Shown here: piece by piece, positions 3,768-24,555 of the stretch
Layout: each line of letters begins with the position of its first letter
Numbering within the stretch: position 1 is the first letter of the stretch
NCBI RefSeq assembly: GCF_019237615.1
Contig: NZ_JAFAGT010000069.1
Location: 1 to 64,000 of the forward strand
From: Roseateles sp.
GTDB lineage: Bacteria; Pseudomonadota; Gammaproteobacteria; Burkholderiales; Burkholderiaceae_C
DNA: 64,000 bases
Reading direction: 5' to 3'
The notes under the pieces: model-generated
The model's database searches: none
Seen by the model: the letters and a program-made list of their open reading frames with translations, nothing else
What the model was told of the DNA's origin: nothing
Made by a program: the position numbers and the translations under genes

Positions 3768-4724
3768 TCAGGGCAGCAGCGTCGCCATGGCATCGGACAG
3801 CCTGTACCCTGCCAGGACCATCCTTCTTTCGGCCGCATCCTGTGCTTTGCCGACGTAGTCGTCGGGCAGCGACTTTCCATTTGACTTGCTACTGCTTCCC
3901 TTGAGCTTGCCATTCAGATAGACCACGCTCTTGGCCACGACGAGGCTTTCGTCCCTGGCCCATGACATGGCCGCATTGGGGCTGAATGGCCGCTCGGCAA
4001 GCTCGGGAAGATCAGCGCGGCTCAAGCCAGCTCGATTGCGCAGGCCTGTCGCCCGATTGGCGACAACCTGATACCGCTCAGAGCCGAGGATCAGGTTGTC
4101 CCAGAACGCATGCAGGGAAATCGTGGACGAGTCCGGCGTGACGCGAATGTAGAAGCGCGTGCCGCCGCGATCGCCTTCGACCGTGGGGTACTGCGTCGTG
4201 AACAGGCTGACCGAATGCAGCGGCTGGTGGACGTCGCCGGTCAAATGGAAGAGCCAGCAGAGCGCGACCGCGCGATCGCCTTCGTCCGTGGAGTTCAGCA
4301 GGGTCGACACATGCTCGGCATAGGCGGTGACGAGATTCTCCGGACCGGGCTGTGTGACCTTCACCGAGGACGGCTGCCCGGGCGGCTTGTATGCCAGGTC
4401 GATGAAGTGATCTTCAGGCCGATCGAAATCGTGGTCACCGCGGACATCGTCCGGCCACCGCGCAGCCAGCATGAACAGCCTGCGGTTGGCATCGTCTTCG
4501 GACAGGCCGGCCGCCTCGACGTCCGCACGCCATCGTTGGTCGTACTGTGGATGCAGCTTCAGGGCGGCAACGATCCTCGCGACCGTCGAGGGAGAGCGAG
4601 CCTTCAGGTCGTCGTAGGCGATTGCCGCTGAAGTCATGTGCCCCGCCTTGTTCCAGGCCTGAGCCGATGGCATGCAGCCCAACGCAGCCGCACAGAGCAC
4701 CAGGGAACCCAGTTTGCAGTGCAT
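3768..4724 (-). CDS. Secreted S1/P1-family nuclease
   Basis: Signal peptide then WNKAGHMTSAAIAYDDL; RWPDDVRGDHDFD; HLTGDVHQPLHSV; GGTRF; typical zinc-dependent S1/P1 motifs. Confidence 0.9.
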   Translation of the reverse strand: MHCKLGSLVLCAAALGCMPSAQAWNKAGHMTSAAIAYDDLKARSPSTVARIVAALKLHPQYDQRWRADVEAAGLSEDDANRRLFMLAARWPDDVRGDHDFDRPEDHFIDLAYKPPGQPSSVKVTQPGPENLVTAYAEHVSTLLNSTDEGDRAVALCWLFHLTGDVHQPLHSVSLFTTQYPTVEGDRGGTRFYIRVTPDSSTISLHAFWDNLILGSERYQVVANRATGLRNRAGLSRADLPELAERPFSPNAAMSWARDESLVVAKSVVYLNGKLKGSSSKSNGKSLPDDYVGKAQDAAERRMVLAGYRLSDAMATLLP

Positions 4725-5161
4725 GGCTATGCCCTCCGCATTGGTCGACGACAAATCCTACGAAGAGATCACTGCGTTCGCGTCCACAGAATTGTGGAGT
4801 TCGGGCGCCGACCCGCCCGAGACATCCTGGGACTGCCGGGAACGCCGGTAAAGCCGGACAGGGGGGGCCAGATCATCTGCGACGGCTCCCCCGAGCCCTG
4901 GCCGCCCTCGATCCGCATGTCACCGAGGCGGGATCCGTGAACTCTCGGCCCGCCACAGGACCAAGGCGGGCGAACAGCTGCGCAAGCCCCTGGGAGCACG
5001 CCACACCGTTGAGCGCGACGTCGCCGGCTTCGCCCCCAACATTGCGGGTGCCAGTGCACCGGCGAACCGTTAGCGTACGAAATCGGGGTTAGTTCACTCC
5101 TGCCCGCCGCTCCCCGACAACGGCGGAGCCTTGCCATAGGGCGCATGCCTCGGAGGGTGTC

Positions 5162-7513: not shown

Positions 7514-7870
7514 ATGCCGTCTCGCCCGTCCGCCCTACGCAGCCTCCGTGCCTCACGGCCGTGGAGCAAGTTGCTGCTGGGCTGGCTGTTCGGGATCGCA
7601 CTGGTCCTGACCCAGCAGGCGGCAGCGCTGCACCAGCTGGAACACAGCCTCTCGGATGCGGACGCCACGCATCAGAGCGATCGCGCGCCGCGCCAGGCCT
7701 GCCAGCTGTGCCAGCTCTTCGCCCATGTCGAATCGCTTGCCGCCGGTCCCGGGATGGTGGCGATGGCGCTGTTTGCGCTGTCGTTCGCGCCGCCGGCCAC
7801 CGTCAAGCCCGTCCGGCGCAGCCTGGATCTTCCGGGCCTTCGCAACCGCGGCCCTCCCCTGCTGGCCTGA
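7514..7870 (+). CDS. Small exported/membrane protein with CxxC (DUF2946-like)
   Basis: N-terminal hydrophobic segment, His-rich stretch and CQLCQLFAH motif, C-terminal hydrophobic segment; directly upstream of a TonB receptor. Confidence 0.55.
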   Translation: MPSRPSALRSLRASRPWSKLLLGWLFGIALVLTQQAAALHQLEHSLSDADATHQSDRAPRQACQLCQLFAHVESLAAGPGMVAMALFALSFAPPATVKPVRRSLDLPGLRNRGPPLLA

Positions 7871-7970
7871 ACTAGGTCCGTCCACGCCCTTCGCGCAGCT
7901 GCGACGCGCCGCGCGGGCGGCGTGCCTGGCGCCGCCGCGCGACGCCGCACCCGTTCAGACAGGGGGTCCC

Positions 7971-10094
7971 ATGCCCGCTCCCACCCTGCGCCGACTGGCG
8001 CTTTCGATCACGCTCGCCTATCCCGTCCTCAGCCCCGCAGAGCCTCCCCCCGTCGCTGCCGACCTCCAACAGCTCCCGGTCGTGGAAGTCTCCGGTGCCC
8101 GCCAGCGGCTCGACGCCGCCCGCAACGGCCTCTCGCCCGATACCGGCAGCAGCGTCTACCGACTGGAGCGGCAGGACCTGCTCAGCCTGCCGCGAGGCGA
8201 GGCCACGCCGCTGAACCAGGTGATCCTGCAGACGCCTGGCGTGGTGCAGGACTCGTTCGGCCAGCTGCACATCCGTGGCGACCATGCCAATGTGCAGTAC
8301 CGCATCAACGGCGTGATCATTCCCGAGGCCATCAGCGGCTTCGGCCAGGCCCTGGAGACCCGCTTCGCGGATCGCATCAGCGTCCTCACCGGCGCCCTGC
8401 CTGCCCAGTACGGCTACCGCACCGCCGCCGTGGTGGATATTCAGACACGCGGCGAAGTGCCCGATCACGGCGGCAGCATCAGCGTGACAGGTGGCACACG
8501 GGGCCACGGCGAGGTCGCCGCCGACCTGGCAGGCTCGCGGGGTGCGTTCAGCTACTTCTTGACGGGATCCTGGTTGCGCGACGGCGTGGGACTGGAGAAC
8601 CCGACCTCCAGCCGCACCCCCCTGCACGACAGGACCCAGCAGGGCAAGGGCTTTGGCAACCTGTCCTACGTACTCGACGCCGACAGCCGGGTCAGCCTGC
8701 TCTTTGGCATCACCAACAACCGCTTCCAGATCCCCGACGCGCCCGGCCAGACGCCCAACTTCGATCTGGTCAATACGCCGCCCAAGGACTCAGCCACCCT
8801 GGACGCTCATCAGCAAGAACGCAACCGCTTCGCCGTGCTGTCCTACCAGAGCGTCCTGGGACCCAACGTGGACTACCAAGTGTCGCTGTTCCAGCGCAGC
8901 ACCGACGTACGCTACCACCCCGACGCGGTGGGCGACCTCCAGTACAACGGCATCGCGGCCGACATCCTGCGCCGCAACGACGCCGCCGGCGTGCAAGCCG
9001 ACCTGAGCTGGCGGCTGAACTCGGCCCACACCCTGCGCGCCGGTCTGTTCGGCCAGCGGGAGCGCTTCCGCGTGGACAACGGCGCGACCGTCTTCCCCGC
9101 GGACAGCGACGGCAACCAAACCAGCAACGTCCCGCTCCTCATCCAGGACAACAGCCGGATCGATGGCCACCTGGCGGGAATCTATCTGCAGGATGAATGG
9201 AAGCCGGCCAGCGGCCTGGTGGTCAACTACGGCCTGCGCTACGACCGGGTGCACACCGTGGTCAGCGAAAGCCAGTGGAGCCCCCGGCTGGGCCTGGTCT
9301 ACGACCTGAGCAAGACGGTGCGCCTGCATGCCGGTTATGCCCGCTACTTCACGCCGCCGCCGACCGAGAAGATCGACACCACCACGGTCGCCAAGTTCCT
9401 GGGCACGACAAACGCCCTGCCGTCCGATGCGAACACAGCCGTGCGCTCCGAGCGTTCCAACTACTACGACGTCGGCGCCGCCTGGCAGGTCACGCCGCAG
9501 CTGACCATTGGCATTGATGGCTACTACCGCCAGGTCCGGCATCTGCAGGACGAGGGGCAGTTCGGCAACGCCCTGATCTTCTCGGCCTTCAACTACGAGC
9601 AGGGACGCATCTACGGCGCAGAGCTGAGCGCGAGCTACAAGGACAAGCGCTGGTCCAGCTACCTGAACCTGGGCTTCACCCACGCGCGAGGCCGTGGCAT
9701 CGAGACCGGCCAGTTCAACTTCGGTCAGGAGGAGCAGGACTACATCCAGTCGCACTGGGTGCATCTGGACCATGAGCAAAAGCTCAGCGCCTCGGCCGGC
9801 GTGGCCTGGCACCTGGACGGCGACCTCACCCTGAGTGCGGACGCCCTGTTCGGCAGCGGGCTGCGCAACGGCTTTGTCAACACCAGCCACCTGCCCGGCT
9901 ATGCCAGCGTCGATGTGGCGGCAGCCAAGAGTTTCAACCTTGGCAACGGACTCGGAAAGTTCGACGCGCGTCTCTCGGTGGTGAACCTGTTCGACCGGAC
10001 CTACCAGATCCGAGACGGATCGGGCATCGGCGTCAGCGCGCCACAGTTCGGGGCGCGGCGCGGGGTCTACATGACGGTAACGAAGCCTTTCTGA
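7971..10094 (+). CDS. TonB-dependent outer-membrane receptor
   Basis: Plug domain (LNQVILQTPGVVQDSFGQLHIRGDHANVQYRINGVIIPE), C-terminal barrel ending ...YMTVTKPF; likely ATG 7971. Confidence 0.9.
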   Translation: MPAPTLRRLALSITLAYPVLSPAEPPPVAADLQQLPVVEVSGARQRLDAARNGLSPDTGSSVYRLERQDLLSLPRGEATPLNQVILQTPGVVQDSFGQLHIRGDHANVQYRINGVIIPEAISGFGQALETRFADRISVLTGALPAQYGYRTAAVVDIQTRGEVPDHGGSISVTGGTRGHGEVAADLAGSRGAFSYFLTGSWLRDGVGLENPTSSRTPLHDRTQQGKGFGNLSYVLDADSRVSLLFGITNNRFQIPDAPGQTPNFDLVNTPPKDSATLDAHQQERNRFAVLSYQSVLGPNVDYQVSLFQRSTDVRYHPDAVGDLQYNGIAADILRRNDAAGVQADLSWRLNSAHTLRAGLFGQRERFRVDNGATVFPADSDGNQTSNVPLLIQDNSRIDGHLAGIYLQDEWKPASGLVVNYGLRYDRVHTVVSESQWSPRLGLVYDLSKTVRLHAGYARYFTPPPTEKIDTTTVAKFLGTTNALPSDANTAVRSERSNYYDVGAAWQVTPQLTIGIDGYYRQVRHLQDEGQFGNALIFSAFNYEQGRIYGAELSASYKDKRWSSYLNLGFTHARGRGIETGQFNFGQEEQDYIQSHWVHLDHEQKLSASAGVAWHLDGDLTLSADALFGSGLRNGFVNTSHLPGYASVDVAAAKSFNLGNGLGKFDARLSVVNLFDRTYQIRDGSGIGVSAPQFGARRGVYMTVTKPF

Positions 10095-10494: not shown

Positions 10495-10896
10495 ATGTCA
10501 CACGCGCCCGAGCTGACGAAGCATCAAACGCTGGTGTTCAATGCCCTCACGCATGGGGTTGGGCCGGCCAGCGCCTACGACTTGCTGGACCAGCTGCGCG
10601 GGGAAGGGCTGCGCGCGCCGCAGCAGGTCTATCGCGCGCTGGACAAGCTCGTCGAGTACGGACTGGTCCACCGCCTCGAGAGCCTGAACTCCTTCGTCGC
10701 CTGCGCCCATCCCCATGACCACAAGCATGGTCTGCTCGCCTTTGCGATCTGTGACAGCTGCGGCCATGTGGACGAGTTCTCCGATGTGACCATCGAGCGG
10801 CGCCTCAAGAACTGGTCGAACGACCACGGCTTCAGACCGGGCCATGCGGCGATCGAACTGCATGGCACCTGCGCCCGCTGCGAGGCGCCGCAGTAA
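10495..10896 (+). CDS. zur: Fur-family transcriptional regulator, Zur-like
   Basis: ALTHGVGPASAYDLLDQL...QQVYRALDKLVEYGLVHRLESLNSFVAC; CDSCGHVDEF and CARCEAP metal-binding CxxC pairs; HGTCARC as in Zur. Confidence 0.8.
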   Translation: MSHAPELTKHQTLVFNALTHGVGPASAYDLLDQLRGEGLRAPQQVYRALDKLVEYGLVHRLESLNSFVACAHPHDHKHGLLAFAICDSCGHVDEFSDVTIERRLKNWSNDHGFRPGHAAIELHGTCARCEAPQ

Positions 10897-10899
10897 TCG

Positions 10900-13209
10900 T
10901 CAGAAGTCGACCTTGAGGCTCGCGGATATGGTTCTGCCGGGCGCGGTATAGGCCGACAGACGGGCATCATTGGCGGTCAGCGAACTCACTGCGGACCAGT
11001 CGAAATACTGTCGGTCGAAGAGGTTGTAGACCGCCGCATTCAGCGTGGCTTGCTTGCCCAGCCGCCAGTAAGCCGTGAGATCCGCGGTGCCGTAGCCAGC
11101 CGTGGTCAGCGGCACAGGCATGGTCGAGCCGGTCTGCGCGAGCGCCCGGTTGACCCGTGTCTTGGCATCCACGATATTGCCGATCAGCTGTCCGCCGAAA
11201 CGACCGCCGCGCTCGTCCCAACGAAGTCCCGCGATCAGACGGGCGGGCTGGATGCTGTTGATCGGCTGGCCGCTGCTCCTGTCATTGCCGATCGACCATT
11301 GCATCGCGCCGATCAGGCGCCAGGCGTCAACGGCATTCAACCAGCGTCCGATCGGCAGTTGCCCCCGCGCCTCGACGCCGTAGATTTCCACCTCGCCTAT
11401 GTTGCGCGATTGAAAGCGCCGTATCGGCCGTGTGCTGCCGCTCGCACCCGCGGGGATGTAGGCGATCATGTCCGTGCTGATGAAGTCGGTGTAGCGGTTG
11501 TAGAACGCCGACAGCTCATAGGAACCGGCACCGGCCATGCCACGCAGTCCGAATTCGACACCCTTGCTGTGTTCAGGCTTGAGATTCGGGTTGGGGATGA
11601 AGTCGTGGATGAAAGTTGCCACCGCGACTTGGCCCACGCGATTGAGCTGGTCATGGGTCGGCATGCGAAAGCCCGTCACGTAGTTGGCAAAGACAACCTG
11701 CTTGGGCTGCCACTCGTAGCTCAGGCCCAGGCGCGGAGTCCATGCCCCCTGCGACAGCCCAACCGGCGTGGCGTTGGCGACGTTGGCATTGGCAAACAGC
11801 GCATCGGGCTTGGGTGTGAGGCGGTAGCTGTCAAAACGCAGGCTGGGCGTCAACCGCAGTCGGCCGTCCCCAAAGGCCATTTCATCCTGGACGAACAGGC
11901 CGACGTTGCGCACATCGGTGTCGGGAGCGGTCTTGCGAGGGTACACATAGCCGTCGATGACGCTGGTCAGGCCCGCGCCAAGCACTGTCTTCTGCGAAGC
12001 GTCGCTATACACACCCACCGATTTCGACAACAGGTCCACTCCGGTCACCCAGCGGTGCGTGATGCCCCCCGCGTCGAGGCGTCCATCGAGCTGGACGTTG
12101 CCTGACCACTGCGGCTCGCTGTGAGACAGCAGGCCGTCACGCAGCAAGGCGGTCGCGGCGCCGGGCGGCTGCCTGTTCTCGTAGGTGCGCTCCCTGGAGG
12201 TGCTGCGCTGGTAGTCGATCTGCGCGGAGAAGCGTTCGAACCACCTGCCATCGGGTGCATAGTCATAGGCCAAGCCGATCCGGTTGCGCTGACTGTCATC
12301 CTGGGCACGGCTTCCGGTGAGGGTCGTGCCGCCCGCCAACGGACCGAGCAGCGAGCGCTGATCTGTCTCGATCGAATTTTCATAGTGCTCGACGGTGAGC
12401 GTCAACGCCTGCGCGGAGCAGACGTCAAGCACCGACTTGAGCAACAGGTTGCGCAGCTGCGAGCTCTGCGGGTTGGGATGAAGCGAACTGTCCGGATGGT
12501 TCTCCAGTTCGTGGCCATTGCGCGCCGACAGCGACACAAGGTTTTGTGTGGCGCCGGCACGGAACGCCAGGTTGGCATGGGACCAGCGGGCGCCGTCGCG
12601 ACCGTCATAGCCCACGGAAGCCGACCCGGCAATCGACTGGCTGCCGTCAAGGAGGTCCTGTGGCGACAGCGTACGGAACAGCACCACGCCGGCCAAGGCA
12701 TCACTACCGTAAAGGCTGGATGCCGGCCCGCGCAGCACTTCGGCCCGACCTAGTGACAACGGATCGAGCTTGAGCTGGCCCAGGTTCGCGCCCGAGGCCG
12801 CGTAGCCTCCGGGCAACCTGACGCCGTCGACCAGCAGCGCCAGCCGCTGGCCGCCGATCCCGCGCACCTCGATGCCGGCCTCATCGCCACGCCCCCGCGG
12901 CTCGCGGGTCACTGCGACACCGGGTTCATAGCGCAGCAGCTCCGAGAAGTCGGTGACCAACTGTTCCTGCAACTGCGCCTCGCCGATCACATTGATGGTG
13001 GTCGGTGTGGTCAGTGCTGGAGCGGGGCGGCGGGTGGCGGTCACGACCACGGAAGGAAGCTCTTGCGCTGCAACCGGCGCAGCCGCCAGAGATGCCTTGA
13101 AAGCTGCCAACGGTTGGGGGCCTTGCCCCTCCTCAGCCCAGGAGATCGAACTCGCGGCCACCCCGAGCACCCCCAGAGCAGCCGCCTGCAGCGGCCTCAA
13201 ACGAAACAT
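10900..13209 (-). CDS. TonB-dependent receptor (heme/haemoglobin or metal-complex type)
   Basis: MFRLRPLQAAALG signal peptide (start 13209), plug motif, GRTISASLKVDF C-terminus. Confidence 0.9.
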   Translation of the reverse strand: MFRLRPLQAAALGVLGVAASSISWAEEGQGPQPLAAFKASLAAAPVAAQELPSVVVTATRRPAPALTTPTTINVIGEAQLQEQLVTDFSELLRYEPGVAVTREPRGRGDEAGIEVRGIGGQRLALLVDGVRLPGGYAASGANLGQLKLDPLSLGRAEVLRGPASSLYGSDALAGVVLFRTLSPQDLLDGSQSIAGSASVGYDGRDGARWSHANLAFRAGATQNLVSLSARNGHELENHPDSSLHPNPQSSQLRNLLLKSVLDVCSAQALTLTVEHYENSIETDQRSLLGPLAGGTTLTGSRAQDDSQRNRIGLAYDYAPDGRWFERFSAQIDYQRSTSRERTYENRQPPGAATALLRDGLLSHSEPQWSGNVQLDGRLDAGGITHRWVTGVDLLSKSVGVYSDASQKTVLGAGLTSVIDGYVYPRKTAPDTDVRNVGLFVQDEMAFGDGRLRLTPSLRFDSYRLTPKPDALFANANVANATPVGLSQGAWTPRLGLSYEWQPKQVVFANYVTGFRMPTHDQLNRVGQVAVATFIHDFIPNPNLKPEHSKGVEFGLRGMAGAGSYELSAFYNRYTDFISTDMIAYIPAGASGSTRPIRRFQSRNIGEVEIYGVEARGQLPIGRWLNAVDAWRLIGAMQWSIGNDRSSGQPINSIQPARLIAGLRWDERGGRFGGQLIGNIVDAKTRVNRALAQTGSTMPVPLTTAGYGTADLTAYWRLGKQATLNAAVYNLFDRQYFDWSAVSSLTANDARLSAYTAPGRTISASLKVDF

Positions 13210-13236
13210 GACATCTCCTGTTGTTCCAAAAATGTT

Positions 13237-13252
13237 TGATGTTATAACATCA
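13237..13252. promoter_or_regulatory. Zur-box-like perfect palindrome TGATGTTATAACATCA
   Basis: 16-bp perfect palindrome with GTTATAAC core between the divergent TonB receptor and CobN-like gene; Zur-like gene is ~2.3 kb away. Confidence 0.65.
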
Positions 13253-13262
13253 CACTCAGATC

Positions 13263-16200
13263 GTGAATCTGAATTCGTTGCATGTAATGGATGCGGGAGA
13301 TATGCGCCTCTACTCGATGACAAGCCGGCCCCGGCGACAAAAGCTGCTGGCCGGTGTGCTGCTCATGATTGCCCTGGCCGCAGGCTGGACAACCTGGCTG
13401 ACCTGGCTCGCTCCCACGCGCATTGCGCTGGTCAACTATCCGGAGTTCCAGATCGCGCGAATGATGAGGTCGAGCACCTCATCATTCGCGCGGGTCGAAC
13501 TGCTTGCGATTGACCATCTGGACCGTGCGTCACGCTACGACCTTGTGCTGCTGTTTGGACGTGGACTCAAACTGGACGACGCGCAGATCCAGCAGCTGCG
13601 CTCGACCGGCCTCGCGGGCACGCCCGTCTATGTCGATGGCGCGACCAATCCCCAGCACGACGGCCTGACCACGCTCAAGGGCGCAGATCTGGACGCCGTT
13701 GCCGGCTATCTGCGCGGTGGTGGCCCGGTCAACTATGCGAGGCTGCTTTCCTATGCGCGCCGCACGCTTGACGGCAAGACCTTGTTCGCCGGCGATGTCG
13801 GGCCGCCGCAACCCGTACCGCAGGACGTGTTCTTCCACCTGGGCGACGAGGCGGTCTTTCCTGGCTTCGACACCTTCCAGCAGTGGCTGCGCCAGCGTCC
13901 TGGCTGGCGGCCTGGTCGCCCACGGCTGGCGCTCCTGACCAGCGTGCCAGGCCCGTTCAATGCCAATCGCGACCATGTGGATGCCCTGATCCGCACCTTC
14001 GAGGCACGTGGCTTCGAGGTGATTCCAATCTCGGCGACGCGCCAGCGGCTGGCCTTCCTGAAGGCTGCGGATCCCGCGGCGGTCGTCTACATGCCGCATG
14101 GCCGGCTTACCTTGGGCCAGGCGGACGAGGCACGGCAGTGGCTGGAGGCCCGCAATGTTCCCCTCTTCGCGCCCCTGACGGTGTTCTCCGAGGCCGGGCG
14201 TTGGGAGGCGGACCAGCGCAGCTTTGACGGCGGACTGATGAGCATGTCGGTCACGTTGCCCGAGATCGACGGTGCGACGGCGCCGATGGCCATTGCCGCG
14301 CAGTTCCGCGGCGACGACGGCCTGCGAGTATTCCGGGCGTTGCCCACACGGCTCGACCGCTTCGCCGACCTGGTGCAGCGCACGCTGGCCCTGAAGGCCA
14401 AGCCCAATGCCGAGAAAAAGCTGGCCATCTACTACTACAAGGGTCCGGGTCAAAGTGCCTTGACGGCCGGCGATCTGGAGGTGGCGCCCTCGCTCTATGC
14501 GCAATTGCAGGAGCTCAAGCGGGCCGGCTACCGGGTGGACGGCCTTCCCGCCACGGAGGAGGCCTTCGAGAAGCTGCTGCAGCGCCGCGGCCCCAACATA
14601 GGTCCCTATGCCAAGGGTGACTTCTCCCGCTTCCTGCAGGGGGCCGAACCTGCGCTGGTCTCGGCCACGCAGCTGGCGGGCTGGTGTGGCAAGGCGCTGC
14701 CGAAAGCGCTTTGCGAACAAGTGATCCAGCAATACGGCCCCGCACCGGGTGCCTACTTGAGCACTGAAAGCCATGTGGCTGTCGCGCGCGTGCCCCTGGG
14801 CAATGTGGTGTTGCTGCCGCAGCCGCTGCCTGGCGTCGGTGACGACTCGTTCAAGCTCGTCCATGGTGCGCACCAGGCACCACCTTGGCCCTATGTCGCC
14901 TCCTACCTGTGGATGCGCGAGGTCTTTGGTGCCGATGCGGTGATGCATTTCGGCACGCATGGCAGCCTGGAGTTCACGCCGCACAAGCAGGTGGCGCTGT
15001 CGGACAAGGACTGGCCTGACGCCCTGATCGGTGGCCTGCCGCATGTCTACCTGTACACCATGGCCAATGTGGGTGAGGCGATGATGGCCAAGCGTCGCAG
15101 CTATGCCGCCGTCGTTTCCCATCTGACGCCGCCGCTGCGCGAAGGCGGTGCGCAGCTGGCCTACAAGCGGCTCGCGGACGGCCTGCAGACCTGGGCTGCT
15201 GCAACAGGGGCCCTGAAGAGCCAGTATGGACGGGACATGCAGCATCAGGCCGTCGAGCTCGGGCTGCACCGCGATATGGGCCTCGAGGCGAGCGGATCTT
15301 GGAGTGACGAGCAGCTCGAGCGCCTGGCCGACCACATGGAAACGGTGGAAAGTGCCCGCATCACCGCGGGCCTGTACACGCTGGGACGCCCCTATGCGCC
15401 GCAAGCGATCGACACAACAGCCCGATTGATGGGGCTGGATGCGCTGGTGCAGGCGCTGGCGGAGCTGGACGTGGCCCGCGGCAGCGTGCCACGCGAGAGG
15501 CTCGATCGCTCGGCTTGGTTAAGCGCCACCTACCGTCCCCGTGCAGATGCACTGATTGCGGACGTCGAGCGCGGCATGCCGCCCGAACAGGTGTTGGCGG
15601 GTGCAGTCAGGCCCGAAGAGCTGCGGCGCGCACTTGCCTGGCAGACCACCCAGCGCCGCCCCGGCGATGACGAGCTGGTGCGGGGCTTCGCGTCGCTGGG
15701 CAACGTACGCTCACCGGCCAAGCGCCCACCGGAGGCAGCAATGGACGAGGCGTCGCTGCGCCGGCACCTGGCCCGCGCGCTGGCCGATCCTAAGAAGCGC
15801 CGGTTCCTGGAGGAGCTGCGCTCGGACCAGAAGCTCCGCCAAGCCCTGCGCACGCTCGATCCCGACTCGCTACAGGCGGCGCGTAGCGTCTCCCGGTCGA
15901 TACCGGCGATGGCCGAGGCATTGGACATAGCGACCGATGCAGACGTCAGACCCGTGCTGGCCGCCATGGCGTCGGAAGCCGTGCGCCAGCGCATGCTCGG
16001 CTGGATGGCCCAGCCGACACTGCAGGCGGACGTCGACGCCGAGGCGCGACGTCAGCGCGAGGCGCTGCTGGCGCAGGCGCGCCAGCACGAGCCTGCACTC
16101 GATCTGGCGGAGACCAACACGGATGCCCAGATGGCCGTCCGACAGGTTCGCGCCCTCGACGCCGGCGCGCAGGAAAAACTGACGGCGGCGCTGCGCTTCT

Positions 16201-18056
16201 GGCGCGACGCCCGTGGCTTGAGCGGTGAGCACGAAAGCCGCCGCCAAGCGGCCACGGCGGGCATCGGCCGGTTGCTGCAGGCGCTGGAGCACGATTCTGT
16301 AGCCCGCGCCGACCGCGAGCGTCGATTCGCCGAGGCGGTCTTGACCCTGCAGAATCGCCTGCGCGCCATTCCTGGCTACCGCGGCCTCCTGGCCGACAGT
16401 CCACGGCGCGAACTGGCCTCGCTCACGAACGCGCTGGCGGGCGGATTCACTTCGCCGTCCTCCGGCGGGGATGCACTCGTCAACCCGGCCGCACTGCCCA
16501 CTGGCCGCAACCTGTTTGCCATCGACGCCGAGAAGACGCCCTCCGAGCAGGCCTGGGCCGTGGGGCGCAAGCTGGCGGACCAGTTGCTGGCACAACACCG
16601 CGCCGCGCACGGCGGGGCCTGGCCGACCAAGGTGGCCTTCACGCTGTGGGCGGGAGACTTCATCCAGACCGAAGGCGCCGGCCTCGCGCAAGTCCTGTAT
16701 CTGCTGGGCGTCTCGCCCGTGCGCGATGCCTTCGGACGCGTCTCGGGGCTGCGGCTGATTCCGCGCGACGAGCTGGGCCGTCCGCGCATCGACGTGGTGG
16801 TCCAGACCTCAGGGCAGCTGCGCGACCTGGCCGCTTCGCGCCTGTACCTGGTGAACCAGGCCGTGGCGATGGCGGCGCAGGCTCGCGAAGCCGACAACGC
16901 CGTGGCACAGGGCGTGCAGTCGGTCGAACGCCAGCTCAAGGAACGCGGCGCGGCTCCGGCCGACGCCAGGCGTTTCGCCACCGTGAGGGTCTTTGGCAGC
17001 GTCGACGGCGGCTACGGCACCGGCATCATGCGCATGGTCGAGGCCGGCGACCGGTGGAAGGACCGCTCGGAGGTCGCACGCACCTATCTGGCCAACATGA
17101 ACGCGACGTTCGGTGAGGGCGAACTGTGGGGGGCCTCGCAGCCCGGCGCCTTCGAAGCGGCGCTGGCAGGCACGCAGATGGTGGTCCAGCCGCTGCAATC
17201 CAACACCTGGGGACCGATCTCGCTGGACCATGTCTACGAGTTCATGGGCGGCCTGAATCTTGCCGTGCACGAGGTCACCGGACAGGACCCTGCGGCCTAC
17301 TTCAACGACTATCGCAACGCATCACGCCCCACCGTTCGGGAAGCCGTGGCCGCCATTGCGGTCGAGGCGCGCGCGACGCTGCTGAACCCGGCCTACGTCG
17401 AAGCCATGAGCCGGGGCGGCGCTTCATCGGCCGAGGTTTTCGCAGAAACCTTCCGCAACCTCTATGGCTGGAACGTCATGAAGCCTTCAGCCATTCCCGG
17501 CGAGCTGTGGGACGCACTGGACGAGGCCTACGTGCGCGACGCACGCGGCATGGGCGCTCATGCCTTCTTCGAGCGCGTGAACCCCTATGCGCTGCAGGAG
17601 ATGACGGCGGTGATGCTGGAGACGGCGCGCAAGGGCTACTGGCAGCCCGGCAGCGATAGGCTGCACGCGATCGCTCAGCTGCACGCCGATCTGGTGGCGC
17701 GTTTCGGTGCCAGCGGCACCGAGTTCGTCAACGGCAACCGTGAACTGCGGCGCTTCATCGCCAGCCAGCTTCCGGCCCAGGCGCGGGCGTCCTATGACGA
17801 CGCGCTGCAGCAAGCCAATGAGGGCACAGCCATCGCGACCGAGAAGGCGACGGTGCTGCATCAAGAGAATTCACCGTCGGCCGCCGGCGCAACGGCTGGC
17901 CGTGCCGACACGAAACCGGCTGCTCAGACACCGCGAGGACTGCTGCCGCGCTTCGGAGGTGCCGGCGCCGCGGTGGTGGCCGTCGCGCTGCTTGCCCTGG
18001 CTGCACTCGCCTGGTGGTTGCGCCGTCGCTTCGTTCAGACCGAGGCGCCGACATGA
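13263..18056 (+). CDS. Membrane-anchored CobN/magnesium-chelatase-like protein (HmuS-like)
   Basis: 1597 aa, CobN signatures (MHFGTHGSLEFTPHKQVALSDKDWPDALIGGLPHVYLYTMANVGEAMMAKRRSYAAVVSHLTPP, RVFGSVDGGYGTGI), N-terminal signal anchor and C-terminal TM helix. Confidence 0.85.
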   Translation: MNLNSLHVMDAGDMRLYSMTSRPRRQKLLAGVLLMIALAAGWTTWLTWLAPTRIALVNYPEFQIARMMRSSTSSFARVELLAIDHLDRASRYDLVLLFGRGLKLDDAQIQQLRSTGLAGTPVYVDGATNPQHDGLTTLKGADLDAVAGYLRGGGPVNYARLLSYARRTLDGKTLFAGDVGPPQPVPQDVFFHLGDEAVFPGFDTFQQWLRQRPGWRPGRPRLALLTSVPGPFNANRDHVDALIRTFEARGFEVIPISATRQRLAFLKAADPAAVVYMPHGRLTLGQADEARQWLEARNVPLFAPLTVFSEAGRWEADQRSFDGGLMSMSVTLPEIDGATAPMAIAAQFRGDDGLRVFRALPTRLDRFADLVQRTLALKAKPNAEKKLAIYYYKGPGQSALTAGDLEVAPSLYAQLQELKRAGYRVDGLPATEEAFEKLLQRRGPNIGPYAKGDFSRFLQGAEPALVSATQLAGWCGKALPKALCEQVIQQYGPAPGAYLSTESHVAVARVPLGNVVLLPQPLPGVGDDSFKLVHGAHQAPPWPYVASYLWMREVFGADAVMHFGTHGSLEFTPHKQVALSDKDWPDALIGGLPHVYLYTMANVGEAMMAKRRSYAAVVSHLTPPLREGGAQLAYKRLADGLQTWAAATGALKSQYGRDMQHQAVELGLHRDMGLEASGSWSDEQLERLADHMETVESARITAGLYTLGRPYAPQAIDTTARLMGLDALVQALAELDVARGSVPRERLDRSAWLSATYRPRADALIADVERGMPPEQVLAGAVRPEELRRALAWQTTQRRPGDDELVRGFASLGNVRSPAKRPPEAAMDEASLRRHLARALADPKKRRFLEELRSDQKLRQALRTLDPDSLQAARSVSRSIPAMAEALDIATDADVRPVLAAMASEAVRQRMLGWMAQPTLQADVDAEARRQREALLAQARQHEPALDLAETNTDAQMAVRQVRALDAGAQEKLTAALRFWRDARGLSGEHESRRQAATAGIGRLLQALEHDSVARADRERRFAEAVLTLQNRLRAIPGYRGLLADSPRRELASLTNALAGGFTSPSSGGDALVNPAALPTGRNLFAIDAEKTPSEQAWAVGRKLADQLLAQHRAAHGGAWPTKVAFTLWAGDFIQTEGAGLAQVLYLLGVSPVRDAFGRVSGLRLIPRDELGRPRIDVVVQTSGQLRDLAASRLYLVNQAVAMAAQAREADNAVAQGVQSVERQLKERGAAPADARRFATVRVFGSVDGGYGTGIMRMVEAGDRWKDRSEVARTYLANMNATFGEGELWGASQPGAFEAALAGTQMVVQPLQSNTWGPISLDHVYEFMGGLNLAVHEVTGQDPAAYFNDYRNASRPTVREAVAAIAVEARATLLNPAYVEAMSRGGASSAEVFAETFRNLYGWNVMKPSAIPGELWDALDEAYVRDARGMGAHAFFERVNPYALQEMTAVMLETARKGYWQPGSDRLHAIAQLHADLVARFGASGTEFVNGNRELRRFIASQLPAQARASYDDALQQANEGTAIATEKATVLHQENSPSAAGATAGRADTKPAAQTPRGLLPRFGGAGAAVVAVALLALAALAWWLRRRFVQTEAPT
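13454..13492. repeat. Perfect inverted repeat, 17-bp arms and 5-nt loop, inside the CobN-like CDS
   Basis: CGCGCGAATGATGAGGT-cgagc-ACCTCATCATTCGCGCG read directly. Confidence 0.9.
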
Positions 18057-18715
18057 GCCCCGATAGCGCCGTAGTGCTGTTGCTCGGGCTTTGTTGCGCC
18101 GCTGTCGCGGCAGTGCAGGCCGGGGACTGGCATCGTCGATGGCTCATCTCGGTGGCCGCAATGCTGGCTGCTGGACTGATCATCGAGAGCGACATGGCGA
18201 GCCGCACCAGCTTGGCCGATGCGATGCGCTGGGCTTCCTCTCCTCAGCGACGTCAGGACTTGGCGGCGTTGCTGCTGGCCGAGGCGCTGCTGTTCGGCGG
18301 CCTGGCGGTGCGGCAGGCGCAGGCGGATATGGGTTTGGCGTGGCGCGCGCTTGGTGCGCTGCCGCCCCCGTCGCTGCTGCTAACGCTGTTCTTGGTGCAG
18401 GTGTTGGTGATGCTGTCGATCGACGGCATCGACTACGCCGTGCTGTCGTGGCCGTTCGGCGGTGCATGCGCGCTGCTCTTCACCGCCGCTGCGCTCGGGG
18501 TGCGGAAGGTGCTGCCCAGCACGGCGCTGCGCGCCAGTTTGCGCGTCGCCCTGCACGGCGTGCAGGCGGCGGCTGGCCTGTGGCTGGCGCGTCCAGCCTT
18601 CGCTGCCGGTGTGGACCCCACGCCGCCATGGGGGGAGCGCCTCGCAGTGGTCGCAGCGATTGCCGCGGCGCTGGCGGCGGCGGGATGGTTGCGCTGGCGG
18701 ATTGCCAGCCATTGA
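18053..18715 (+). CDS. Hydrophobic membrane protein of CobN-like operon (HmuT-position protein)
   Basis: ATGA overlap with the preceding CobN-like gene; several TM helices. Confidence 0.7.
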   Translation: MSPDSAVVLLLGLCCAAVAAVQAGDWHRRWLISVAAMLAAGLIIESDMASRTSLADAMRWASSPQRRQDLAALLLAEALLFGGLAVRQAQADMGLAWRALGALPPPSLLLTLFLVQVLVMLSIDGIDYAVLSWPFGGACALLFTAAALGVRKVLPSTALRASLRVALHGVQAAAGLWLARPAFAAGVDPTPPWGERLAVVAAIAAALAAAGWLRWRIASH

Positions 18716-18737
18716 GATACGAGCAACGAGAACGACG

Positions 18738-19328
18738 ATGGAATCCTTGATACATGCACTTTCGTGGGTCTCCACCGCACTGCAGGTGCCGGTGGTGGTG
18801 GGGATCCTCTACCTGCTTGTGCGCGGCCTGATGATGCTTGGCGAGACCTATGGGCGATGGGGCGAGCGGCTGCAGCGTGCACGCCGTGGCGCCGTTGCTG
18901 GCGACGTCAGGATCGATGAGCTGCTGACGGCCCTTCGGCCCGCCGGCCACCGTAAGCCAGATGTGCTGCAGCAATCTGTTGACGCCCTGTGTCAGGCACC
19001 AGGCGACCAGGCCTGGCATGACCACGTGGTTGCGCGGTTCGAGTTGCAGATCGACCGCCGCCTGGCGCTGCTACGCACGATGACGCGCATCGGCCCCTTG
19101 CTGGGCCTGATGGGCACGCTGATCCCGCTCGGACCCGCCCTGGTCGCACTCGCGGCTGGCGACATCGCCGTACTGGCGCGCAAGATGGAAGTGGCCTTCG
19201 CCACCACCGTGGTCGGACTGGTGATCGGTGCGATTGGCTTCCTGCTGCACCAGGCAGCACAACGCTGGGCGCTGGACGACTTGTCGATGCTGGAATTCGT
19301 CAGTGCGCGGCTACGAGGCGCGCAATGA
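18738..19328 (+). CDS. MotA/TolQ/ExbB-type proton channel protein
   Basis: TM segments; RTMTRIGPLLGLMGTLIPLGPALVALAAGD and FATTVVGLVIGAIGFLLH are ExbB/TolQ-type. Confidence 0.85.
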   Translation: MESLIHALSWVSTALQVPVVVGILYLLVRGLMMLGETYGRWGERLQRARRGAVAGDVRIDELLTALRPAGHRKPDVLQQSVDALCQAPGDQAWHDHVVARFELQIDRRLALLRTMTRIGPLLGLMGTLIPLGPALVALAAGDIAVLARKMEVAFATTVVGLVIGAIGFLLHQAAQRWALDDLSMLEFVSARLRGAQ

Positions 19329-19693
19329 GCCGGCGCCGCTCCTTGCTACGCGGCCGTGGGATTGGCGCCGACAGTGACGACATGGACCCGCTCGGCTTCC
19401 TGATCAACCTGTTCGACGTCGCGCTGGTCTTTGCCCTGGCACTGATGATTGCGCTGGTATCCAACCTGCGTATTGCTGACATGCTGACGGCCAAGGACTT
19501 CACCGTCGTGAAGAATCCGGGCCGCCCGGATATGGAAATCATCACTCGCGAAGGCGGCAAAGTTTCGCGTTACGTTGCCGGCGACGCCACGGCCAGCAGT
19601 CGCCAGGGCCAACGCGTGGGCACCGCCTATCGTCTCGACAGCGGCGAGATTGTCTACGTCCCCGAAGCTGGCCCGCCTTTGCCGGCGAGGTGA
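19325..19693 (+). CDS. DUF2149-like single-TM protein (ExbD-like position)
   Basis: DMDPLGFLINLFDVALVFALALMIAL; ATGA overlap with the ExbB-like gene. Confidence 0.75.
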   Translation: MSRRRSLLRGRGIGADSDDMDPLGFLINLFDVALVFALALMIALVSNLRIADMLTAKDFTVVKNPGRPDMEIITREGGKVSRYVAGDATASSRQGQRVGTAYRLDSGEIVYVPEAGPPLPAR

Positions 19694-19889: not shown

Positions 19890-20206
19890 CCCTCAAGGCC
19901 ACCGCGCCCAAAAGGTCTACCAGGCCTTGCTCGACGAGAGCGCCGAAACCGGCCTGGCGACGGTCTACCGCGTGCGGGTGCAGTTCGTGCAGGCCGGCCC
20001 GTTGCTGCGCACGCACTTCGAAATCGGCAGAGCCGTGTTCGAGCTCGACGAGGTGCGCACCACGACCACTTGATCTGCCACGCGGCGGCGGGGTCAAGGA
20101 GTTCTGCGCCCCCCGGAATCGGAGGCCGCCAGCAGGCCATCGCGGCCGAGCGTAGCTCCCGGCTACAAGCCCACGACCTGGTCTTTCATGGCTTGTGCTC
20201 TCACGG
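19890..20206 (+). pseudogene. fur: Decayed fur (ferric uptake regulator) pseudogene
   Basis: Fragments in different frames: ALKATAP; KVYQALLDESAETGLATVYRVRVQFVQAGPLLRTHFEIGRAVFELDE; HHDHLIC; VKEFC; RQQAIAAERSSRLQAHDLVFHGLCSHG - collinear with Fur but broken by frameshifts and small deletions. Confidence 0.85.
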
Positions 20207-20383: not shown

Positions 20384-22813
20384 TCAGTACGACGCCGACA
20401 TCGTCAGCAGCAGTTGCCGCGGTGCTGCACGCTGGAACGTCTGGTAGTCGCCCGACACCGAGTAGCCGCCGATGCCAACCGATCCGATGTTGCGGTGGTC
20501 CAGCAGGTTGTTCACATCAAGCCGGAACTGCAACTCAGGCATGGCACCTGACGCACCGAGCTTGTAGGACGCGTTGGCGTTCACCGTCCATTGCGTGGGC
20601 ACGTAGATGTCGTTGCTGTACGTGAACGGTTGTCGGTTGAACAGCGTGCTGGCCAGGCCCGCCTCGAAGGCGCCCCGCCGGACCGAGGCCTGCGTGATGA
20701 ACGACTGGCCCGGATAGCCGGGCTGGCTCTTGCCGCGCAGGTCCACCGGTTCGCCGGGCACTTCGAGCGAGCTGTCGTAGCGGAACCTGCTGACGGACCA
20801 CGACTGCGACAACGTGAGCCAAGACAGCAGATCGGCGCTGACGGTCAGATCGGCGCCGACGACGTGCGAGCGCGGCACGATACCCACGCTGCGGACCGGT
20901 GCGAACTGCGGACCGGTGGCTCCGTTGAGCAGCCGGTTGCGGATCCAGCCGACATAGACGTCGGCGTTCACCCTGGCGGCGCCCATGCGCTGGTAGCCGC
21001 CCAGCGTGAGGTTCCAGGTCTTCTCAGGCTTGAGGGTCTTGACGGCGGCGTCGAAGGTCTCCTGGTCGGTAGCAGACCAGGCCGAGTTGACCGGGCCGAT
21101 GTTGTCGCGGGGGGAGATGCGGTAGGCAACCGTGCTGGCTCCGGTATCGACGAACAACAGCGAGCCTGCGGCGGGCCGCCATTCGACGGCCAGGTGGGGC
21201 AGGAAGGGCGCCGTCACGCCCAGCTTGCCGGTGGGCGCCTGATCGGGACCGACACCGCCGCCCGCCGTCACGAAGCGCACGGCCTTGAAGCCGGCATCGA
21301 TGCTGACATCGCCGAGCGTCACGACGTCGCGGACGTAGAGCTGCGTCGACGAGGTGTGCCAGCGCGAGAGGTTTGCGGTCTCAAACGCCGGGCCGTAAGT
21401 GGTGTAGGGACCGACCGCCTTGAGCGGGGCGCCGGTGCCGAGCGCAGGCTGGTTGTACCAGTTGACGGCCGACCTGCTGGAACCGTGCTCGACCCACACG
21501 CCCACGGACGCATCGTGCCGGTCGGACTTGTAGGTCAGCTCGGCCGTCGCACCGCCGCGATGCGAGCGCGGTTGCCAGACCTGCGACGAGAACGGCGCAC
21601 CGGTTTGCGAGGGCACCGTCACGTCGGAGATCTCGATGTCGCTGCGGTTGCTCGCGCCATAGACCATGAGCTTGCCCGACAAGGACTTCGAGATCGTGAA
21701 GCGATGCGCGATGTTGCCGATCAGGTCGGTCGTTGCCTGGCCGGTGTCGTACGGGACCTGGCTGGCCAGATCGCCGCAGGTGTAGGCGCCGCAGGAGGCT
21801 TGCGCATTCTCGGGCGACGCGACATGGTAGGCGTGGGCGTAGTCGGGATAGAAGATATCCGTGCCCTTCCAGCCGAGCTTGTCGAGCATGTCGAACGAGG
21901 TGTTGTTGTAGCCCCAGACCTGCGCGCGCGCGGCAGAGACGAACATGGAAACATCGCCCCAGGGCAGGTCCTGCACGGCCTTGAAGTTGGCACGCAGGAA
22001 CTGTTGCGTGCCGTGACCCGTGTACTTGTCCTTGGATATCTGCTGCACGCCCAGCAGCAACCTGGGCCCGCTTTCGCCGATGCGCCCCGATTGCCAAGTC
22101 AGCGAGTACAGCTGCGTGTCGTGGCTGCCGCGGCCTACCGTGGCAGCGAGCTTCGGCGCTTCGGCGAGATCGGTCAGCGCGTACAGCAGTTCTCCGCCGC
22201 TGGCGGTGCTCGAGAACGTCGATACGCGGGCCGAACCCGGCGCGACCTTGACCGAGCCGATGTTGTCGGGCACACCGACGCTCAGCACCGAGTTGCCGGT
22301 GACGCTGCCGAAACTGCCGTCGTTGAGGGGAATGCCCTCGAAGGTGTAAGCCAGCTCGTTGTTGAAGAAGCCCCGGACGAAGATGAAGGCGTCCGACGCG
22401 TCCAGGCCATAGGCATCGGCAGAGGTGACGGTGACGCCCGGCAGGTTCCGCGTGAACAGCAGCGGGTTGGCGGCGGGCATCGCCGCTGCGGCCCAGTCTT
22501 CGGCGCGCAGCCTGTACTGGCCCGGAGCGACCGGTGCCGTCGTACCCTCGCCCAGCTTCCTCGCCCCGGTGACGACGACGGTCTTCAGGGCGACGGGCGC
22601 CGCGGCCTGCGCGTCGTCGTCAACTGCGGCGGTTTGCTGATCGCGGACTTCGTTGTCGGGCTTGTCATCGGGGCGCTCGCCTGCGCTGGCGCTGCGCGCG
22701 TTCTGCGTGGATGGAGGTGGTGCCGTTTGCTGTTGTGCCAGCGCCGGCAAGGCCGACGCGATGCAGGCCGTTGCGGTGACGATGGCGGAGGAGAGACGGT
22801 ATTCGAAAGACAT
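20384..22813 (-). CDS. TonB-dependent receptor
   Basis: MSFEYRLSSAIVTATACIASALPALAQ signal peptide, plug (NPLLFTRNLPGVTVTSADAYGLDASDAFIFVRGFFNNELAYTFEGIPLND), barrel C-terminus. Confidence 0.9.
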   Translation of the reverse strand: MSFEYRLSSAIVTATACIASALPALAQQQTAPPPSTQNARSASAGERPDDKPDNEVRDQQTAAVDDDAQAAAPVALKTVVVTGARKLGEGTTAPVAPGQYRLRAEDWAAAAMPAANPLLFTRNLPGVTVTSADAYGLDASDAFIFVRGFFNNELAYTFEGIPLNDGSFGSVTGNSVLSVGVPDNIGSVKVAPGSARVSTFSSTASGGELLYALTDLAEAPKLAATVGRGSHDTQLYSLTWQSGRIGESGPRLLLGVQQISKDKYTGHGTQQFLRANFKAVQDLPWGDVSMFVSAARAQVWGYNNTSFDMLDKLGWKGTDIFYPDYAHAYHVASPENAQASCGAYTCGDLASQVPYDTGQATTDLIGNIAHRFTISKSLSGKLMVYGASNRSDIEISDVTVPSQTGAPFSSQVWQPRSHRGGATAELTYKSDRHDASVGVWVEHGSSRSAVNWYNQPALGTGAPLKAVGPYTTYGPAFETANLSRWHTSSTQLYVRDVVTLGDVSIDAGFKAVRFVTAGGGVGPDQAPTGKLGVTAPFLPHLAVEWRPAAGSLLFVDTGASTVAYRISPRDNIGPVNSAWSATDQETFDAAVKTLKPEKTWNLTLGGYQRMGAARVNADVYVGWIRNRLLNGATGPQFAPVRSVGIVPRSHVVGADLTVSADLLSWLTLSQSWSVSRFRYDSSLEVPGEPVDLRGKSQPGYPGQSFITQASVRRGAFEAGLASTLFNRQPFTYSNDIYVPTQWTVNANASYKLGASGAMPELQFRLDVNNLLDHRNIGSVGIGGYSVSGDYQTFQRAAPRQLLLTMSASY

Positions 22814-24555
22814 GGGAAATCTCCGCAAACTGAATTGCGTGAATGGCATGGGAGAGGACGTGGAGCGATTCGCAGGCCACGCTCGGCGGGGCACGGCGAA
22901 TCGACGGCAGGCGGTGCCCGCTGCCGCTGCGCTCAGGTCACCAAGAGCTCGACAGCGGTCTCACGCACGGTGAGGCAGTCGGTCCTTGTGGAACGAGGGC
23001 GGCAGACATCGGGGCGGAGTCAGCCCCGCGGCCGGCGTCTGGTGGGTGCCCCCGGCGCTTGCGCAGCAAGGCGGCCGAGGCACGATGGAGGCGGATCAAC
23101 AGCATGAAGTTGCTTCGGGCGCTCGGCCACGGAGGCAACCTCGGGCGCTCTAGCGAGCCGGTTGTCCGTGTCGGAGCAGGATTCGGGGGGACGACCGGGA
23201 GGTCGTCACGGGATCGGGCGCGCATCGGCGCCAACTAGGGTCGGGGTCCATGAAGGCTCCTGTGGTTTGAGGTGAAGGGGCGCGACCGGACAGGACGCGG
23301 CGTCCCGCGTCCGGCGCTATGGTCGGCGTGACATCGAGCGGCGCACGATCGAACGCAACCGCCGGCCGCGTGCTCACGCACCGGCGCTCAGGCGGATCGA
23401 CTGATCAGGAAAAAGGGCTGCGGCCTGCAAGGCCGGCCCGCGGAGCGAGCGTTAAACGGCCAGGCAGGCGGCGGCCATCCCGGCACGCACGCATTTGCTG
23501 CAACTACTACTGGCACTGTCCACGCGAGCGGCTCCGAAGTGATGATCTAAAAAGTATCGACGGCCGCATCGACGGCTGTCAACAAACTTTTATCGCTGCG
23601 AACAAAGATGATCGCCTCTGAAGCCGTCCGCCACGGACATCGCTGCCGAAGACTCATGGGATGCCAGCCCATTGCATCCGACTCGGGAGCATTGGGACTA
23701 CGTCCCGCGGCACCGCCAACGCCGCGCCTGTAGGAGCGTCGACCGCGGTCCGGGCGCCAGCTTGCCGCCGTTGCCGAACTCCTCGGCAACAAGGTCCATC
23801 GACCCTGCCTGGCCCGCATGCTCGGCTGCGCGTGCTGTCGGCGTTGCACGACCATCTATCGCTTCTTGGTCTGCTTGGCGTGAGGTGCAACCGCTCATCG
23901 CCGTCGATGCGGCGGCAATGGCCTCGCCAGAGTTGCGGGCCTTCGCGGCGCACCAGTACGCGCTGCCGTCGACGCCCCATTGGCCGGCGTCCCGCATGCG
24001 CCTCCTCGGCTCCGGCCACGAGTCCTTGCAGCGCGTGGCCGTGCGAGCTTCGCGGCACCGGAATCAGTCGGCAGGCCCGACGCGGACCGATGCCAAGGTC
24101 AAGCGAGCAGCAATCTTCGTCACATGGCGGCCCCAGGACGGGCGATGCGCCACCCACACCTCCTCCAGGGAAGCCATTGACGACACTCTGAAGGACCTGA
24201 AGAAACGGGGGATCCAGGATGTCGACGACCCCCCACAAAATCCGTCTTCTCAGTCAAATTCATAACGTCAATGTCAGTGCATTGAAGATTGATCATCAAG
24301 TCTATGGACGAGATCACCATCGCCAGCTCTGCACTGCTAGCATATCGATGACGCTGACTCATGGGAAAGATGTCGACTGCGGCATTGCTCGAATCGAACC
24401 TCTGGATTCCGCAAGTAAAACTGATCCCATAACTTGCGGATGCATGCACATGGAAGGCTGGATAGAACCCTCCCTGACGCTCACCCGGATTACCGCTTCA
24501 GCGCTAACCGCTGACAGGGAAAGAGCGCTTCGAGCGTGGCAACAGGGAGATCGCT

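Follow-up and report, generated by a model that had tools for sequence, protein, structure and literature searches.

The first 64,000 nucleotides of contig NZ_JAFAGT010000069.1 from Roseateles sp. (hereafter the window) hold, at positions 10495-19693, a cassette of six genes and one predicted operator. In this cassette the gene of a heme-type TonB-dependent receptor diverges from an operon that encodes a large HmuS-like class I chelatase and three smaller proteins, and a gene for a Zur-like regulator lies beside the receptor. We read the locus as a self-contained, Zur-repressed zinc-scavenging cassette, the HmuS-like enzyme of which would free the metal from an imported tetrapyrrole, and we give this reading as a whole a probability of about 0.5. 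The cassette occurs with identical gene order in 8 Burkholderiales loci, and the nearest relatives of its chelatase in the tree come from Rubrivivax, Cupriavidus and Comamonas.

The two divergent units are separated by the perfect palindrome TGATGTTATAACATCA, which occupies exactly the position (13237-13252, assigned to neither strand) claimed in an earlier prediction from the sequence alone, referred to here as the original prediction. The distance to the start codon is 27 bp on the receptor side and 64 bp on the chelatase side, for the chelatase ATG as called. With up to 3 mismatches allowed, it is the sole match both in the window (0.01 expected) and in the 4.8-Mb host genome, where the 12-bp core matches at a single further place, weakly and with two mismatches. 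This core, ATGTTATAACAT, is also the core of the published alpha-proteobacterial Zur box GATATGTTATAACATATC (PMC2706843), and it is contained in a fragment that served as a probe in electrophoretic mobility shift assays of Zur in Escherichia coli (PMC5916954). With at most one mismatch, the core is present in the divergent promoter of 7 of the 8 orthologous Burkholderiales loci, and a box precedes the receptor gene in four gammaproteobacterial relatives as well.

The distribution of the box in other genomes points in the same direction. The cassette promoter holds the sole copy in the genomes of loci L005, L008 and L052, as it does in the window genome. In the genomes of L007, L029 and L040, most of the further copies with identifiable neighbours adjoin zinc genes, which were named by Pfam and NCBIfam (AztC at 357 bits, cut-off 350; ZigA at 701 bits, cut-off 600). 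These genes encode AztC, ZnuA/ZnuC, an AztA-like ATPase, a Zur-like regulator with ZigA, COG0523 and ZrgA. The Pollutimonas genome has two further copies at other TonB receptors, and two one-mismatch copies stand outside the count. In 1.52 Mb of sequence from 80 related chelatase loci, we found 21 copies of the 12-bp core with up to 1 mismatch. Of these, 11 lie in promoters of receptor or chelatase genes, where 0.7 would be expected, a comparison over loci whose relatedness is uncorrected; the position of the box is therefore not attributable to chance. Because of the published core, its recurrence in the orthologous promoters, the zinc genes at other copies and the promoter enrichment, we consider it very probable that the palindrome is a Zur box and that Zur controls the cassette. 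The zinc control that had been proposed earlier is thus strongly supported by sequence, including zinc-uptake genes in the genomes of three relatives. Control of the cassette promoter by Fur was rejected, as a search of the whole genome for the Fur consensus with up to 3 mismatches returned nothing. A promoter and terminator scan of the region between receptor and chelatase found none.

The gene beside the receptor (10495-10896, + strand) encodes a Fur-family protein of 133 amino acids whose best NCBIfam match is Zur, in agreement with the original prediction. In PDB, the Fur-family regulator 7dh7 scores 90 bits and E. coli Zur (4mtd) 75 bits, and no other entry exceeds 37 bits. At the positions which we take to be the zinc ligands of E. 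coli Zur, seven of eight residues are identical; the exception is His-96, whose counterpart in the alignment is Gly-79, next to His-78. A copy that is 70-72% identical occupies the equivalent place in L005, L007, L008 and L052. Among 19 genomes of the same genus we found no close Zur and no HmuS-like protein (at most distant CobN/ChlH-type matches), and since these congeners have neither, regulator and cassette probably arrived together by horizontal transfer. Among 369 genomes drawn evenly from the class, the only full-length HmuS-like protein was that of the window. A relative of the linked Zur (68% identical) is also encoded on a Comamonas antarctica plasmid (L184, 7968-8477) amid unrelated metabolic genes, with no HmuS cassette within 8 kb.

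The chelatase (13317-18056, + strand; start codon uncertain between 13287, 13302 and 13317) has about 1579 residues and is the sole protein in the genome with the CobN/Mg-chelatase domain PF02514 (934 bits), so that there is no second CobN-family protein. Among PDB chains it scores 1186 bits with HmuS (9d26), against 357 with ChlH and 330 with CobN, and it falls well short of all equivalog cut-offs for CobN and ChlH (607 of 1248, 578 of 829 and 447 of 822 bits, and lower). The label CobN in the original prediction was therefore misleading, and its idea of an hmu-type gene order proved right, and stronger than claimed. No gene for an AAA+ partner (CobST or ChlID) was noticed in the operon, a statement that does not extend to the genome, where such partners were not searched for. 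The heme de-chelatase activity of HmuS was established as recently as 2025, in a structural study that gives the de-chelation residues and the defining features of HmuS (PMC12583661). The positions corresponding to His-538, Glu-577, His-1209, Glu-1212 and His-254 are all kept here: the motif HFG(T/A)HG with catalytic His-538 is present as HFGTHG, the motif LSLDHxxEFMGG with His-1209 as ISLDHVYEFMGG (first residue Ile, not Leu), and the HGR motif with His-254 of heme site 1 as YMPHGRL.

The other ligand of heme site 1, Met-79 in the Bacteroides thetaiotaomicron enzyme, is replaced by arginine (Arg-82 of our protein, codon 13560-13562, + strand, by alignment), and the same replacement is seen in 8 of 8 Burkholderiales orthologues and at every Zur-box locus. 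In place of the methionine-rich insertion of domain IV we found a stretch of 266 residues with 6 Met, which is mostly missing in the orthologous open reading frames of L040 and L052. Counterparts of hmuR (divergent), hmuS, hmuT, hmuU and hmuV are present, and the cassette has no HmuY gene. As it departs from HmuS at Met-79 and in the methionine content of the domain IV insertion, we call the enzyme HmuS-like: it is a member of the HmuS clade by sequence and neither CobN nor ChlH, but we do not file it as HmuS. One hydrophobic helix spans residues 10-28 and another residues 1546-1564; basic residues flank each on the outer side, and for this reason the body of the chelatase should be periplasmic, as in HmuS.

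The residue at position 79 appears to divide the HmuS clade. Over 77 sequences, this column is the sole perfect separator of two types, with Arg in 36 and Met, together with a few His and Ile, in the rest. The Arg type ranges over Proteobacteria, Cytophagales, Planctomycetes and others; in the tree, the Zur-box loci are all of this type and fall in two proteobacterial clades. A census of ZigA, COG0523, Zur, AztB/C and ZrgA homologues in the fetched flanks found zinc genes at 17 of 35 Arg-type loci and at 0 of 36 Met-type loci (Fisher p 4e-7, which overstates the association because the sequences are related). In Castellaniella the cassette adjoins AztC, in Pollutimonas zur-ZigA, and in Rubrivivax it lies between ZigA-zur and AztA/B/C plus ZrgA. 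Several Cytophagales loci of the Arg type have the order ZigA, receptor, HmuY, HmuS. In Proteiniphilum (L074), an Arg-type enzyme is nested within Met-type Bacteroidales and the order is HmuY, receptor, HmuS, ZigA, and in Kuenenia (L033/L034) an Arg-type enzyme from a mixed clade has two ZigA genes upstream. Taken together with the box, these neighbourhoods make it likely that the cassette serves zinc supply.

Several observations weigh against this reading. The orthologue from a Xylophilus metagenome-assembled genome lacks the Zur box and has an AT-rich imperfect palindrome instead. The linked regulator scores 95.7 bits against the NCBIfam Zur model (Fur 37 bits), below the equivalog cut-off of 167; the Zur-like proteins of the relatives, those adjoining ZigA included, also remain under it at 79-87 bits. 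No zinc gene was found at 18 of the 35 Arg-type loci, among them all those of Acidobacteria, and Prevotella nigrescens, from outside the set, has a Met-type enzyme with a ZigA-like gene 3.6 kb downstream. The association of Arg-79 with zinc genes comprises only three independent contrasts, of which two agree and none disagree, and it is not significant at this level. Furthermore, the division between Arg and Met follows phylum, and probably also oxygen use. Proteiniphilum and Kuenenia are both anaerobes, and for that reason a split between aerobes and anaerobes is not sufficient by itself to account for the pattern.

Other genes were recorded near Arg-type enzymes. Small proteins with C-x-x-C-like motifs, which match no Pfam family and most of which also contain several His, are encoded upstream of HmuS at loci of Cytophagales, Chitinophagaceae and Planctomycetes (L009 721-1053, L028 5982-6371, L033 1018-1425 and L041 6479-6814). 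A gammaproteobacterial Arg-type operon without a Zur box has a CusA/CzcA heavy-metal efflux gene (L014 4548-7709, 1491 bits) close upstream.

The receptor gene (10900-13209, - strand) encodes an outer-membrane protein of the heme/hemoglobin type, which scores above the cut-offs of both TIGR01786 (hemoglobin/transferrin type, 390 bits, cut-off 324) and TIGR01785 (heme type, 333 bits, cut-off 317). The closest PDB chain is PhuR (8the, 315 bits), whose heme ligands we take to be His-124 and Tyr-519, with a numbering apparently shifted by 13 in 8the. Unlike in PhuR, the plug His is Gln in 8 of 8 Burkholderiales receptors, and the Tyr column is a gap in the same eight and Tyr or Phe in five gamma- and alphaproteobacterial ones. 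All 13 receptors compared share one histidine of loop 7, residue 536, which precedes NPNL (FIHDFIPNPNL). If it were the single axial ligand, this would fit a five-coordinate zinc porphyrin, which is only suggestive. The heme-type receptor and the presence of HmuY next to Arg-type HmuS in Cytophagales support a tetrapyrrole as the ligand. ZnuD is likewise a heme-type TonB receptor under zinc control, here predicted; a difference from both ZnuD and PhuR is that an enzyme operon is attached to the receptor.

The three genes downstream of the chelatase lie on the same (+) strand, with overlapping ATGA starts at two of the three junctions (chelatase/HmuT-like and ExbB-like/DUF2149). The first (18053-18715) encodes a putative inner-membrane protein with about six predicted helices and no Pfam or NCBIfam family, and is regarded as HmuT-like because homologues occupy the equivalent place in 7 other Burkholderiales loci and in some Bacteroidota loci. 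The membrane component that the original prediction had left unspecified is covered in part by this gene. The second (18738-19328) encodes an ExbB/MotA/TolQ-like proton-channel protein corresponding to HmuU (PF01618, 46.7 bits), with membrane threonines Thr-157 in 67 of 70 and Thr-158 in 70 of 70 relatives. The third (19325-19693) encodes an HmuV-like DUF2149 protein with a single membrane helix (PF09919, 96.5 bits), so that the ExbB-like and DUF2149 genes named beforehand are both in place. Asp-31 in its membrane helix, within the motif N-L-F-D-V, is kept in 68 of 69 relatives and resembles the membrane Asp of ExbD; this Asp motif is the sole support for equating the protein with ExbD, as the AlphaFold model is weak (predicted local distance difference test 65, predicted TM-score 0.31), and we did not accept the identity as proven. 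In the 2025 study HmuU and HmuV are described as powering the receptor (PMC12583661). Where enough flank was available, nearly every chelatase locus also has the ExbB-like and DUF2149 genes; they precede the chelatase in L024, L033, L037, L041, L045 and L080, and at some loci are found with no receptor detected nearby. As both track the chelatase across loci, their distribution suggests, conjecturally, that they act on the enzyme, as substitutes for the AAA+ motors that serve CobN and ChlH.

In terms of mechanism, we propose that zinc-loaded Zur binds the palindrome under zinc sufficiency and represses both divergent genes, and that under zinc starvation the receptor and the chelatase operon would both be made. 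The receptor would then carry a metal-tetrapyrrole across the outer membrane; a zinc porphyrin, for example zinc-coproporphyrin III, is the likeliest cargo. Once in the periplasm, it would be held between the two active-site histidines of the membrane-anchored HmuS-like enzyme, which would take the metal out in a reverse chelatase reaction. The ExbB-like, DUF2149 and HmuT-like proteins might form a proton-driven inner-membrane complex that energises the receptor or the enzyme. The freed Zn2+ would enter through an ordinary inner-membrane importer, which could be of the ZIP type in this organism (one ZIP protein and no ZnuA were found in the host genome) and of the AztABC, ZnuABC or ZrgA type in the relatives. 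De-metallation of a tetrapyrrole is, on the conserved motifs, a somewhat probable reaction for the enzyme. That zinc porphyrin is the natural substrate is conjectural and somewhat less likely than not; in its favour, zinc-coproporphyrin (zincphyrin) occurs in nature (PMC10060970). The reading put forward in the original prediction, a chelatase in the periplasm with a zinc complex or zinc-tetrapyrrole as its target, thus stands as the best supported, with a substrate that we infer.

Zur control of a unit of this kind is not itself new. Pseudomonas aeruginosa PA1922-PA1925, with a receptor, a CobN-like protein, an ExbD/ExbB-type protein and a DUF2149 protein, is under Zur (PMC4542158, PMC9431628, PMC8531726); reports of it as a strong Zur target go back to 2015 and state that its role "remains to be determined" (PMC4542158). 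Our comparison with published descriptions shows the same combination of receptor, CobN-like, proton-channel and DUF2149 genes with a Zur site, predicted in our case. The two differ in that here receptor and chelatase are divergent, zur is linked and an HmuT-like gene is present, for which the published tables of PA1922-PA1925 list no counterpart. In several other proteobacteria we also observed a more distant CobN-like family (L134-L143), which may include PA1923 and whose genes sit with those for a TonB receptor, an ExbB-like protein and a DUF2149 protein. These loci have no Zur box and were left out of the evidence, and no cobalamin riboswitch was found beside those scanned (all but L140).

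This likeness raises the alternative that the cassette imports free Zn2+ or a non-tetrapyrrole zincophore in the manner of PA1922-PA1925, with the large protein as a zinc-binding or zincophore-stripping factor. PA1922 has been described as a free-zinc importer (PMC10393844), which adds to the points against our reading, the matching gene set is Zur-regulated in P. aeruginosa, and Zur-regulated metallophore systems exist (PMC6103462). However, the porphyrin active-site motifs of the enzyme are almost invariant and the receptor is of the heme type with a fully conserved loop-7 His. Moreover, with 10 His in 770 residues that receptor is not rich in histidine, and no gene for metallophore synthesis was noticed nearby, though no dedicated search was made. 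We consider this alternative unlikely, with a probability of about a quarter.

The comparison with hmuYRSTUV of Bacteroides and Porphyromonas bears on a further alternative. The two systems share the receptor, an HmuS-clade chelatase with a membrane anchor at either end, HmuT, HmuU and HmuV counterparts in the same gene order, and the positions His-254, His-538, Glu-577 and His-1209. They differ in Met-79, the methionine-rich insertion, the HmuY gene and the orientation of the receptor, and in that a Zur box and a zur gene stand here in place of the iron linkage. The cassette could accordingly strip iron from heme like Bacteroides HmuS, with zinc starvation as the inducing signal and Zur control as no more than a general response to nutritional immunity or host contact. 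All catalytic residues of the heme de-chelatase are indeed kept, the receptor is of the PhuR/hemoglobin type, and HmuY-family genes occur at some Arg-type loci. Yet the site-1 ligand Met-79 is Arg wherever there is a Zur box, and the PhuR plug His is Gln in the Burkholderiales receptors. Genes found next to the loci of relatives encode zinc importers and zinc chaperones (no equivalent search was made for iron genes), and the genome has no match to the Fur consensus at the mismatch level used. This explanation appears slightly less probable than import of free zinc or a zincophore. Class I chelatases of the CobN/ChlH type share the PF02514 domain and the chelatase motifs with our enzyme, which differs from them in its scores far below the equivalog cut-offs, its apparently periplasmic location and the ExbB-like and DUF2149 genes alongside. 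Salvage of cobalt from a corrinoid or cobalt complex, to replace zinc in starved cells, is very improbable: CobN does belong to this class, and the P. aeruginosa Zur regulon is repressed by cobalt, with published work tying PA1923 to that metal (PMC13083405, PMC8531726), but the enzyme is nearer to HmuS, the receptor scores only 128 bits with the B12 receptor family against 390 with hemoglobin/transferrin receptors, and the genome has no other CobN-family protein.

The surroundings of the cassette contain two more TonB-dependent receptors (7656-10094, + strand; 20384-22894, - strand), and no Zur box, even with 3 mismatches allowed, accompanies either. Just 3' of the DUF2149 gene lies a decayed fur gene (19903-20052, + strand, reaching about 20120), in which 49 residues are 65% identical to the intact Fur of the same genome (contig C38) before the frame breaks; it is a relic of an iron regulator adjoining a zinc-type cassette. 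Further away, a gene of the S1/P1 nuclease family, the members of which are zinc-dependent enzymes, is found at 3771-4757 (- strand), with no Zur box beside it.

The locus joins two separate threads, the HmuS de-chelatase and the Zur-regulated operon, by combining an HmuS-clade protein with a Zur box, zinc-uptake islands in relatives and a single heme-ligand residue whose change parallels the zinc linkage. We found no paper that joins HmuS with Zur or zinc in the literature searched, nor one that reports an HmuS-clade enzyme under Zur or a linkage between residue 79 and zinc. We tentatively suggest that the HmuS family may comprise two metal-specific enzymes, a Met-79 type that takes iron from heme and an Arg-79 type that takes zinc from zinc porphyrins in zinc starvation. 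If this is true, zinc-tetrapyrroles would be a zinc source for bacteria, and a new class of such sources, and residue 79 would be a readable marker of the metal. In that case a human pathogen might possess such a system too, in PA1922-PA1925, and some annotations as cobaltochelatase CobN that are unconnected with B12 would be explained. It would also call for caution against equating every hmu-like operon with iron acquisition.

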